Source: a virus
DNA: 21,955 nucleotides
IMG/VR virus record: IMGVR_UViG_3300032675_000147
Span: 1-21,955 of that record
Strand: one strand, 5' to 3'
A model generated the notes under the pieces. That model was not told the DNA's origin. It ran no database searches and saw only the letters and a program-made list of their open reading frames with translations. Positions 2,772 to 21,634 of this stretch are shown in pieces (position 1 is the stretch's first letter; each line of letters opens with the position of its first letter). A program made the translations under genes and the position numbers.

Positions 2772-3457
2772 TTTCTTAGGTCACCCTTTGCAGAGCTTAT
2801 TGGTAAGTACGTGAACGCTTCGTTAGCAAAACTTTCTGTAGCGTCGCCGTAAAGACTTGCCCAATCCTCTCTCTTTACATTGGTAGTAACAATGGTAGGC
2901 AATCCGTTGTTGAACCGTGTCCTTAACACATGATGCAACATGTTCTTTTGCCAACCGCTAAGAGATGCGTGCTCTTTACCTACGTCATCGATGATCAGTA
3001 CACGAATGTTGTATGCATCGTTTAAGCATTCGCCAAGCATGCCTTGGTATATAACCTCTTCATCATCTGTTGGGCCGTCGATCATTGCACCTTTAAGCTC
3101 TAAAACATCATTGAAGGTCATAAAGTAACATGGGCGAATAAGAGTTCGGCCATCGGCAACATCCAGTTGCGACATGGTGAAGTCCAACATCACTTGCTGT
3201 ATTACAGAGAGCGCAAGAGTTGTCTTACCAAGTCCAGGTGTACCCCACAGCATTAGGCCTTTACCGCACACAACGCTGTTCTTAGCACGTATTACTTTTC
3301 CGTCGGCAGTTCCTTTAAGCCAGCGCTCTACCTTGACCATATCTTCTGGTGCTACATCTTTACAATCAGAAAGAGACCAACCGATGCGAGCCTTAGGAAT
3401 GTTTGCCATCTGGATCCAAGTGCGTCTACGCATCTTTACAGCTTCTAGTTTAAACAT
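2768..3457 (-). CDS. DnaC/IstB-like AAA+ ATPase, probable helicase loader
   Basis: A AAA+ ATPase of the DnaC/DnaI/IstB group, expected to load the DnaB-like helicase onto DNA. With the preferred start it has 229 aa: an N-terminal helical part (1-60), Walker A GTPGLGKTT (72-80), Walker B VLIIDDVG (153-160, D157/D158) and a sensor-like TTN (191-193). I chose the ATG at 3457 because it forms a TAATG overlap with the preceding stop and is preceded by GGAAGG with ideal spacing. An ATG 15 bases further upstream (3472) is also open but has only a weak Shine-Dalgarno sequence. IstB-type transposition helpers share the fold, but there is no transposase here and a helicase and primase lie downstream, so loader is much the better reading. 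Confidence 0.9.
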   Translation of the reverse strand: MFKLEAVKMRRRTWIQMANIPKARIGWSLSDCKDVAPEDMVKVERWLKGTADGKVIRAKNSVVCGKGLMLWGTPGLGKTTLALSVIQQVMLDFTMSQLDVADGRTLIRPCYFMTFNDVLELKGAMIDGPTDDEEVIYQGMLGECLNDAYNIRVLIIDDVGKEHASLSGWQKNMLHHVLRTRFNNGLPTIVTTNVKREDWASLYGDATESFANEAFTYLPISSAKGDLRK

Positions 3458-4257
3458 TAAAAACCTTCCCATGACTTCTCAGCATCAAGCTTGATCTGCT
3501 CCATCTCTTCGGGTGTAACCATAGACTGCTCGTACTCAGTATGCAAGCGGTCAAACTCTAGGATGAACTTCTTCCAGACAATCTCGCCGTCGTTAAGTTT
3601 GGTGTCGTGCTGGATAGAGGCAAAGAAGCTAAGCATCATCTGGCGCTCCACTTCTCCATTGGTGTTGTACTCCTTGCGCTTATTGGCAAGAGCGTAGCGA
3701 AAACGGCTACGAGTAACTTTCCAAGGTTGGATGTGCCAGATCTTATGCATCTGTTCTGCGAACTCAAACGTAGAGTCAGTTGTGCTCCAGTTAACCGCGT
3801 TCTGAATAGAACGGTGGATCATGCGCTCTTCTCTACGAGCCTCGTGGTGCTCCATCTTCTCTTTGTGTTTGGCGGCACGATACTTCTCTTTCGCGGCATT
3901 GCGCTCTTCTTCTGTCTCGTAATACTCCACGTGTGTCTCCTCCCGCGAACTCGATTCGCTATTCGGTAAAAGAGAATTAGCTCTTAGTAATAAGTTGCTA
4001 TTCAACTTGGTCAATATAGTGTATGACCGGGTTTCCAGGAACTGGTTTCCCGCTGCTGTAAGTTGGGTAGTCTTGATGACTCTGCCGTTGACCATGGCGT
4101 TGGTTGTAGTCTCCAGATAACCTGCGTTCTTTAAATTATTGATGGCAGTCTGGACGGCATCCCGTCCTTCTCCCACCTTTAAAGAAATGCCCTTGGCACC
4201 CCCTGGGAAGGGTGTAAGTGCGAACTCCTCTAGGATAGCTATATCTCTGGCGTTCAA
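3457..4257 (-). CDS. Winged-helix DNA-binding protein, putative replication initiator
   Basis: A 266-aa protein whose first 75 residues read as a winged helix-turn-helix: DAVQTAINNLKNAGYLE gives the recognition helix and the next strands, with NGRVIKTTQ as the wing. A strongly charged, probably helical stretch follows (about 105-155, rich in Arg, Glu and Lys), then a C-terminal helical domain from W157 to about 250 with several Trp and Phe residues. An N-terminal winged helix with a helical C-terminal domain, directly before a helicase loader, is typical of phage replication initiator or DnaD-like organiser proteins. I infer that role but see no diagnostic motif. Translation starts at a TTG (4257) that overlaps the previous stop. 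Its Shine-Dalgarno sequence is weak, so expression probably depends on coupling. A transcriptional regulator is the alternative. Confidence 0.8.
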   Translation of the reverse strand: MNARDIAILEEFALTPFPGGAKGISLKVGEGRDAVQTAINNLKNAGYLETTTNAMVNGRVIKTTQLTAAGNQFLETRSYTILTKLNSNLLLRANSLLPNSESSSREETHVEYYETEEERNAAKEKYRAAKHKEKMEHHEARREERMIHRSIQNAVNWSTTDSTFEFAEQMHKIWHIQPWKVTRSRFRYALANKRKEYNTNGEVERQMMLSFFASIQHDTKLNDGEIVWKKFILEFDRLHTEYEQSMVTPEEMEQIKLDAEKSWEGF

Positions 4258-19731: not shown

Positions 19732-19920
19732 TTACTTCTTTTTGAGGATCTTCTTGGCTAGAGCCTTATCGGTCTTCTCGTCCTCTTTTTCAAACTTCTT
19801 TTTCTGAGCTGGCTTCATTCCTTTTTCGAACTTAGCGTCGCTGTCTTTCTTCTTACCCTTTGGGCCTTTGCCGTATCCGACTTCGCCCTTTTTCTTACCG
19901 CAACCACATGAGATACAGAT
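19732..19920 (-). CDS. Lys-rich mini-protein with Cys motif, apparent AUC start
   Basis: An open frame of 62 residues rich in Lys (over a third) with an N-terminal CISCGCGKKK motif, a Gly/Lys stretch (GYGKGPKGKKK) and a helical, charged C-terminus ending KKILKKK. Composition resembles the neighbouring 60-aa basic protein and suggests nucleic-acid binding or packaging with DNA. There is no ATG, GTG or TTG at a sensible place: the frame has only one ATG, halfway along. An ATC at 19920, one base after the stop of the endonuclease VII-like gene and 8 bases after GAAGG, is the best start and would give M-C-I-S-C-G-C-G. A degraded start or sequencing error are alternatives. The gene is followed by the terminator. 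Confidence 0.55.
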   Translation of the reverse strand: MCISCGCGKKKGEVGYGKGPKGKKKDSDAKFEKGMKPAQKKKFEKEDEKTDKALAKKILKKK

Positions 19921-19921
19921 T

Positions 19922-20380
19922 TTAGTTACCTTCTTTCGTTGTATAGTTTGTTAGGTATTCAACAGCCCTTTTTAAGGTTTCCAAGTCGTCCTTAGCGTGA
20001 CCTATCAAAAGGTTGCAGTCTCGACAGAGTAACCCCCTAAGGCACTTTCCACACGTTGTTTCTTCAGGACAACAGCTGTGGTCGTGGTCAATATTGGATT
20101 CCCAGCGATTAGCATCTTCTAAGGTTGGATTAGACAACTTTTTTAAGCATATTGGGCACTGCCCATTTTGCTTCAAATAAAGCTCATTTAAACCCTCTAA
20201 AGTAAGGGCATATCGAAGCCTTATATGTTGACCGTATCTTACCAACCTATTGTATGGTTTTCTATAATACTTGTGCTTATTAACTTTATCGTAATCTTTT
20301 TTGCAAGGTAAGCAATAGCCTTGATTTTTATGAAAATCGGTTAATGGCTTAGTTACCCCACACTTAGGACAAGTCTTGAT
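19922..20380 (-). CDS. Endonuclease VII-like HNH nuclease with N-terminal zinc ribbon, apparent AUC start
   Basis: A recombination endonuclease VII-type protein, a family that cleaves branched DNA before packaging. The core has C75/C78 (CPIC), the catalytic-type segment NIDHDH (96-101, D100/H101), a Cys-rich loop, and C119/C122-N123 (CRDCN), then a helical tail. A canonical start exists only at TTG 20245 (107 aa). The open frame runs further and encodes a typical family N-terminus, KTCPKCGVTKPLTDFHKN with a second pair CLPC (C4, C7, C23, C26), so the real start is probably the ATC at 20380. It shares one base with the upstream TAA (TAATC), copying the TAATG couplings elsewhere. The shorter TTG form remains possible and would lose the zinc ribbon. 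Confidence 0.85.
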   Translation of the reverse strand: MKTCPKCGVTKPLTDFHKNQGYCLPCKKDYDKVNKHKYYRKPYNRLVRYGQHIRLRYALTLEGLNELYLKQNGQCPICLKKLSNPTLEDANRWESNIDHDHSCCPEETTCGKCLRGLLCRDCNLLIGHAKDDLETLKRAVEYLTNYTTKEGN

Positions 20381-20562
20381 TATTTCTTACCCTTCTTAGC
20401 ATCTTTCTTACCCTTGTGGGCCATGGCTTCCATTTTTTTGACTCCGTACTTTTTGATACCAGCTGCAGCCGCGACCGCTGCTGGATTCTTAGCTCCACCT
20501 TTTGCAGCCTCTTCTTCAACCTTCTTGAAGCGCGAGCCTGAGCCTAGTTTAGCTTTTGCCAT
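20380..20562 (-). CDS. Basic 60-aa protein
   Basis: A small Lys/Ala-rich protein beginning MAKAKLGSGSRFKKVEE, with a middle GAKNPAAVAAAAGIKKYG and a basic end HKGKKDAKKGKK. I recall similar small proteins (AK-x-K-LG-x-G...GAK(D/N)P...A-x-x-GRKKYG) among phages of Actinobacteria, often near head genes, without a known role. Two short helices are likely. Start ATG 20562 has AAAGGAG at 7-base spacing within the end of the 44-aa gene. The stop overlaps the presumed start of the nuclease. A capsid-internal or DNA-binding role is plausible but not shown. Confidence 0.8.
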   Translation of the reverse strand: MAKAKLGSGSRFKKVEEEAAKGGAKNPAAVAAAAGIKKYGVKKMEAMAHKGKKDAKKGKK

Positions 20563-20683: not shown

Positions 20684-20781
20684 TACTTACTCTTTACTGT
20701 AACTGAAGACTTGGCTTTAGTAGATGTAGCGCTACCGCTAAGAGTAATGGCTTCACCCTTTTTACGGATTCGGATACTCAT
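20683..20781 (-). CDS. 32-aa basic peptide
   Basis: A very short frame, MSIRIRKKGEAITLSGSATS followed by TKAKSSVTVKSK, linked at both ends by overlaps: ATGA with the decoration-like gene before it and TAATG with the 44-aa gene after. No motif recognised; strands with alternating Ile/Arg and Ser/Thr/Val suggest a short beta-hairpin. The two coupled junctions are the main argument that it is translated. Confidence 0.6.
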   Translation of the reverse strand: MSIRIRKKGEAITLSGSATSTKAKSSVTVKSK

Positions 20782-21100: not shown

Positions 21101-21634
21101 TTAGTTGGCATACTGCTGAGTTATAAGTTTAGCGTTCTTTTTTGTATTGCACAGACCATGAGAAGGTCTTACGTTATCTAGGGTATCTGGTCCGCCTTTA
21201 GACATAGGGATCAAATGGTCTATATGTAGGCCTTTTTCCCACCCCTCAGCTCCAGTACTTCTCTTAGCTCCTAGGTCAATCTTTTCGTTACATATATGGC
21301 ATAGCGTGCCGTACAGAGACAAGACTTCCTCTTCTGTGTAAGGCCCGCAGGTAGTGTTTAACATCCAAGCCCTACGCTTGTTATTAAACGCCCTAGTTCT
21401 GGCACGAACTTCTTCTATATTGCGCTCTCTGTAGGATTTATTAGTCCGTTTTCTTTCTTCTTTGTTTCTAACCCGCATTCGGTCACGTTCCTGTATACGG
21501 GCTAGTTTTTCAGGGTTTTTCCTGTATTGCTTGTCGTACTCAAGCTTAAAGCTTCGACACTCTTGGCAGTAATCTGTGCTATTTTTTCTATGCAGGTTCC
21601 AGCCAGCATAAGTGCCGCATTTATCAGTTTGCAT
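21101..21634 (-). CDS. HNH endonuclease, probable homing-type
   Basis: A 177-aa free-standing HNH endonuclease. The N-terminus holds a zinc motif C6-G-T-x-x-G...H15...C23-x-x-C26 like the CGT-x-G fingers common in actinobacterial and actinophage proteins. A long basic helical middle (30-100) follows. The HNH domain has C112/C115 (CHIC), H137-I-D-H140, then N154...H159 and C162-N163. Such nucleases often move themselves into phage genes. The preferred start ATG 21634 lies inside the end of the preceding structural gene, overlapping it by 11 bases, with no Shine-Dalgarno sequence. The frame is open to a TTG at 21718, but that extra part covers coding sequence of the other gene. The protein ends QYAN, as does the upstream gene. 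Confidence 0.85.
   Translation of the reverse strand: MQTDKCGTYAGWNLHRKNSTDYCQECRSFKLEYDKQYRKNPEKLARIQERDRMRVRNKEERKRTNKSYRERNIEEVRARTRAFNNKRRAWMLNTTCGPYTEEEVLSLYGTLCHICNEKIDLGAKRSTGAEGWEKGLHIDHLIPMSKGGPDTLDNVRPSHGLCNTKKNAKLITQQYAN

Follow-up and report, generated by a model that had tools for sequence, protein, structure and literature searches.

How are two adjacent phage genes translated when neither offers a canonical start codon where its protein should begin? The question arises on the minus strand of a 21,955-base virus record (the window; the term covers this whole stretch of DNA) from a contractile-tailed phage, in which genes for tail sheath, tail tube, baseplate and a DnaB-like helicase are recognised. 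A Lys-rich gene is followed there by an endonuclease VII-like nuclease and then by a small Cys-rich gene (Table 1), and the nuclease and Cys-rich frames both lack ATG, GTG and TTG ahead of their conserved N-terminal cysteines. At the 5' junction the stop codon of the Lys-rich gene (TAA, 20382-20380) overlaps an ATC (20380-20378) as TAATC, and is itself overlapped by an ATA at 20383, 6 nt after GAAGGG. At the 3' junction the nuclease stop TAA (19924-19922) is followed one base on by a second ATC (19920-19918). From its upstream in-frame stop to the TGT the Cys-rich frame reads CAA ACT ATA CAA CGA AAG AAG GTA ACT AAA ATC, with no ATG, GTG, TTG or CTG in this interval. The initial annotation had laid out the locus in these terms, and its positions, codons and stops, the GAAGG and the alternative ATA are all present in the sequence; of the TAATG couplings with which it compared the TAATC, one lies near 20685.

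Table 1. Features of the nuclease locus, in window coordinates.
Feature	Position	Strand	Remarks
Upstream Lys-rich gene (MAKAKLGSGSRF...KKDAKKGKK)	20380..20562	-	ORF; stop TAA 20382-20380; conserved in 80 fetched loci
GAAGGG, Shine-Dalgarno-like	20390..20395	-	9 nt before ATC 20380; originally 5' of the invaded gene's ATG
Imported tract (nuclease plus ~27 bp of foreign flank per side)	19893..20406	-	identity to L003/L004 at least 99% outside, breaks inside
ATC, nuclease start-codon position	20378..20380	-	on the invaded gene's former ATG (TAATG to TAATC)
Endonuclease VII-like nuclease, inserted element, 152 aa	19922..20380	-	zinc ribbon CPKC...CLPC, IDHDH, CRDCN; PF02945, PHROG 2633
TTG, first canonical codon of the nuclease frame	20243..20245	-	rejected as start
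GAAGG, Shine-Dalgarno-like	19929..19933	-	within the last nuclease codons; 8 nt before ATC 19920
ATC, putative start of the Cys-rich gene	19918..19920	-	ATG there in un-invaded L003/L004
Small Cys/Lys-rich gene (ICISCGCGKKKGEVGYGKG...), 62 codons	19732..19920	-	family members in >160 distinct contexts

Relatives of the locus were gathered in searches that started from the Cys-rich gene, from the gene before the nuclease and from the profile of the nuclease, and the search with the Cys-rich protein returned 27 loci. The nuclease matches the PF02945 profile at 66.7 bits (cut-off 23.6; E 1.7e-18) and PHROG 2633 at E 2.3e-25. The IDH(D/N)H and CRDCN motifs and the CxxC pairs are invariant in four lineages, and the catalytic and zinc-binding residues of the window's protein are intact; the catalytic role of the Asp-His, the downstream Asn and the zinc cysteines we take to be that of their counterparts in T4 endonuclease VII. 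Homologues in cultured phages reach about 35% identity only, and a direct query of viral contigs with the window's nuclease gave no match.

Two relatives, L003 and L004, encode a Cys-rich protein 97% identical to that of the window and have no nuclease at the locus, with flanks at least 99.0% identical to the window on both sides. The window and L003 agree at every position for several hundred bases up to the break and for ~200 bases beyond it. Between these stretches, the nuclease is bordered by unmatched, imported flanks of ~27 bp each (20406-20381 and 19920-19893), and every difference from L003 in the Cys-rich gene falls in the imported part, among its first codons. Another un-invaded locus, L281, resembles the imported upstream flank, reading AAGAAAGACGCTAAGAAAGGTAAGAAATAATG and then TGC, with GAAAGGTAAGAAATAATG where the window has the Shine-Dalgarno-like GAAGGG; since L281 continues from this flank into TAATG, the TAATC of the window stands in the place of the target's own TAATG. 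Presence and absence in near-identical genomes, with attached donor flank, is described as the usual mark of homing in passages of PMC2988022 and PMC6083498, and this locus shows optional presence at one site, recurrence at homologous sites and transfer of donor flank. On these comparisons the nuclease is evidently a recent insertion with imported flanks, bearing the signature of homing. A group I intron or similar element was rejected by inspection, as the nuclease frame fills the whole insert. A related system is F-CphI, an endonuclease VII-motif homing endonuclease of cyanophage S-PM2 (PMC6083498). The two share the endonuclease VII-type catalytic motif, and both are encoded by phage genes that do not lie inside an intron; F-CphI, however, is encoded next to psbA and acts together with a group I intron, whereas the window's nuclease has no intron and its gene is at the start codon of its target.

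The arrangement recurs. Nucleases 53-58% identical to that of the window adjoin an MCxxCGC-type gene in L006, L097, L067 (many copies) and L113, and in all five lineages the insertion lies directly before the TGT of that gene. The downstream gene begins with ATC in the window, L067, L097 and L113 and with ATT in L006, TGT coming next in each case, and no in-frame ATG, GTG or TTG is found upstream of it in any of the five. The end of the element, GGTA-N6-AT(C/T)-TGT, is kept, with GG 8 nt before the ATC or ATT in 5/5 (counted in L113 from the second of two GGTA copies), and the Shine-Dalgarno core is weak in L067 (TAGG), L097 (GTGGG) and L113 (TAGG). Relative to the A of the ATC or ATT, the nuclease stop begins at -3 in the window and L006, +9 in L067, and +6 in L097 and L113. 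As read from these junctions, a homing nuclease has evidently settled repeatedly at the first codon of small Cys-rich phage genes, leaving AUC or AUU in place of AUG.

That the codon in question is usually ATG is clear from the rest of the family. L003 and L004 read GAAAAAGTAATGTGCATTAGC, with an ATG at the codon matching ATC 19920 and coupled as TAATG to the preceding gene. For the Cys-rich gene this answers a test set in the initial annotation, that relatives of both proteins be inspected for ATG at the same codon, and nearly the whole family agrees: where no nuclease lies directly upstream, 163 MCxxCGC genes start with ATG, as against 2 with GTG and 2 with ATT (distinct genes, all fetched loci). 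ATC or ATT starts are thus seen in 5/5 lineages directly after the nuclease vs 2/167 without it (Fisher p ~2e-8, uncorrected for shared ancestry), a value to be read as an association and not as five independent events, since the invaded lineages share ancestry. Lys-rich MCxxCGC genes occur widely among phage contigs from metagenomes, where several paralogues often stand side by side. The window's member has no PHROG match, cultured phages gave no match to the locus at the DNA level or to the Cys-rich protein, and the bacterial genomes searched for the family yielded no confirmed relative.

The start of the nuclease itself behaves differently. The column of ATC 20380 holds ATG in L113 (as TAAATG), GTG in L067, TTG in L097 and ACT in L006, and among these loci the ATC at 20380 is found in the window's record only. 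The three canonical codons in this column mark 20380 as the true start position of the nuclease, upstream of TTG 20245 as first proposed. The first 44 codons are conserved at the protein level between lineages (pN 0.16-0.37, pS 0.67-0.92), so that TTG 20245 is not the ancestral start; we rejected it as the nuclease start, which would delete the conserved zinc ribbon. On this alignment ATC 20380 apparently arose in the window's lineage, by mutation of a start codon that the nuclease had captured. The suggestion that the two AUC codons form a deliberate pair for low-level initiation is not supported, in that the 3' codon is constantly ATC or ATT in five lineages while the nuclease start varies (ATG, GTG, TTG, ATC, ACT), and the other start-less relative, L006, has no AUC or similar codon there (GTA ACT AAG). 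With the 3' AUC recurrent and the 5' AUC lineage-specific, the neighbouring codons are not one device.

With less certainty, the nuclease of the window may initiate weakly at AUC 20380. It is possible, though we think it unlikely, that its start is instead AUA 20383, or that its translation has been lost, the AUC of the Cys-rich gene then being the only real one. The AUA is suitably placed, overlapping the stop and 6 nt after GAAGGG, and the related L006 nuclease has no usable start at the same place; against this, the ATC occupies the exact column of ATG, GTG and TTG in relatives, and the catalytic and zinc-binding residues are intact. The L006 gene (1781-2233) likewise retains intact catalytic motifs, with no ATG, GTG, TTG or ATN at its start (GTA ACT AAG ACC). 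It may use an even less usual start or be in early decay, and its GTAACTAAGACC would be derivable from GTAACTATGAAGACC by the loss of three bases; the nuclease of the window could be on the same path of decay.

The explanation that we favour, and consider probable, is that of a free-standing homing element with a captured ATG, followed by stop-coupled re-initiation at AUC or AUU for the Cys-rich gene. An endonuclease VII-type free-standing element, with presumed cutting activity, would insert into small MCxxCGC genes immediately behind their start codon, and translation of the nuclease would use the captured ATG and ribosome-binding site of its target. The 3' end of the element, GGTA-N6-AT(C/T), would supply the invaded gene with a new ribosome-binding site and start codon, and ribosomes ending the nuclease -3 to +9 nt from the AUC or AUU would re-initiate there with Shine-Dalgarno help. 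To judge from the junctions, such stop-coupled, Shine-Dalgarno-assisted initiation is likely, and through it the Cys-rich protein would still be made, probably at a reduced level. In the window, where the inherited ATG is now ATC, nuclease synthesis is probably very low. We found no RNA structure that hides or presents either junction (z about +0.65 and +0.69), and no tRNA gene in the window able to read AUC as a start.

To our knowledge, there are hardly any documented cases of natural AUC starts in bacteria or phages. A gene that starts with AUU is pcnB. Another case is infC of E. coli, which is AUU-started and linked to IF3 feedback (Sacerdot et al. 1996, as cited in PMC2268962). Genes of the infC type share with the window a natural start codon that departs from AUG in its third base, although theirs is AUU, whereas the system described here uses mostly AUC, in phage genes, and is tied to a mobile element. 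Both AUC and AUU start very weakly in measured systems, AUU being quoted in PMC10666635 as giving ~0.3% of AUG, and raised IF3 inhibits initiation at non-canonical codons (PMC2268962), so the level of the Cys-rich protein should be low unless coupling helps. For the 5' junction there is a precedent in T4, where mobE is coupled to the preceding nrdA as UAAUGA, according to the part of PMC2988022 that treats it. The free-standing seg and mob genes of T4 resemble the nuclease of the window in being optional genes between two conserved genes, with a stop-start overlap upstream, and low nuclease synthesis is expected in both. The T4 endonucleases, however, start with AUG (mobA with GUG), and loss of a downstream AUG is not described in the passages of PMC2988022 on which we draw.

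In the proposed system AUC recurs at one defined place in several phage lineages, and the near-identical, ATG-started relatives are ready-made controls; these natural junctions allow AUC initiation and stop-coupled re-initiation to be tested. They may also illustrate one way for a coding sequence to tolerate a homing element at its start. It is doubtful, albeit conceivable, that the element holds its target hostage, having taken the AUG and made synthesis of the Cys-rich protein dependent on ribosomes arriving from the nuclease gene; were this so, deletion of the nuclease would cost the phage the Cys-rich protein. On this reading, loss of the ATG might in addition shield the invaded allele against cutting by its own nuclease. 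Gene finders limited to ATG, GTG and TTG would miss the Cys-rich gene, truncate the nuclease and drop its zinc ribbon.

Some members of the Cys-rich family have ATC or ATT and no nuclease. L037 and L063 (ATT) and L364 (ATC) have intact frames and a different phage gene upstream, which ends GGTAAATAA directly before A-ATT or A-ATC. These genes (L364 1-250, L037 about 3570-3850, L063 about 3150-3430) lie in the context GGTAAATAAAAT(C/T)TG. In L364 only GTA, AAT, AAA and ATC stand between an in-frame TAG and the TGT. L037 and L063 may use an extended start, an in-frame ATG located within the adjacent gene, 14 codons upstream. L364 was the one true ATC-started member without a nuclease in a broad search for the junction pattern, most of whose extra matches were unrelated CxxCGC proteins, and it was left out of the start-codon tally because it was recovered by searching for ATC or ATT. 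All three may be scars of a lost nuclease.

Change among the ATC and ATT members is mostly synonymous (window vs L006, dN 0.087 and dS 0.77; L067 vs L097, dN 0.20 and dS 0.97; L037 vs L063, dN 0.005 and dS 0.09). This argues that the Cys-rich protein is still made, an argument weakened because gene bodies may have been replaced recently by homing; the invaded alleles may be young, with gene bodies newly acquired from un-invaded phages. We regard it as improbable that the insertion simply silences the gene, its intact frame being a recent remnant with no AUC start and its function covered by paralogues elsewhere in the phage. The allele of the window, with its differences from L003 confined to the first Cys-rich codons, is indeed a recent import, and L097 has a second, ATG-started paralogue. 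However, ATC or ATT persists without frame decay in five lineages whose nucleases are strongly diverged, the frames of the nuclease-free members are likewise intact and have changed mostly at synonymous sites, and start codons lost at random would not be replaced each time by AT(C/T) with a Shine-Dalgarno-like GG 8 nt before it.

It is highly improbable that the Cys-rich protein is made as a fusion to the nuclease through a +1 frameshift shortly ahead of the nuclease stop. Its frame is +1 to that of the nuclease and open across the junction in 5/5 lineages, a constancy that follows from common descent, but the nuclease codons there (GGT AAC TAA, GGT ACC CAA or GGT ATT AAT) share no slippery codon and the nuclease-free ATC and ATT members have a different upstream gene. 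Least probable of all is that the start codons are artefacts of sequencing or assembly. The 5' ATC is indeed known from one record, and no other copy of the exact nuclease turned up in the viral collection, but an independent assembly built from a different metagenome (L189/L002, with 1 mismatch over 4275 bp) also has the 3' ATC, and L067-lineage copies from several metagenome records likewise read ATC at this codon. Together with its recurrence after the nuclease, the independent assembly makes ATC 19920 a lasting feature of the element and not a product of chance or error.

The window carries a second nuclease gene, of HNH type, on the same strand (21101-21634). Its last codons, QYAN-stop, repeat the LQYAN-stop with which the preceding gene ends near 21626, and L006 and L031, which are without this gene, show the QYAN end once, with GGAGACCCATGG after it. 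By this comparison it looks like another homing element, one that would preserve both of its neighbours.
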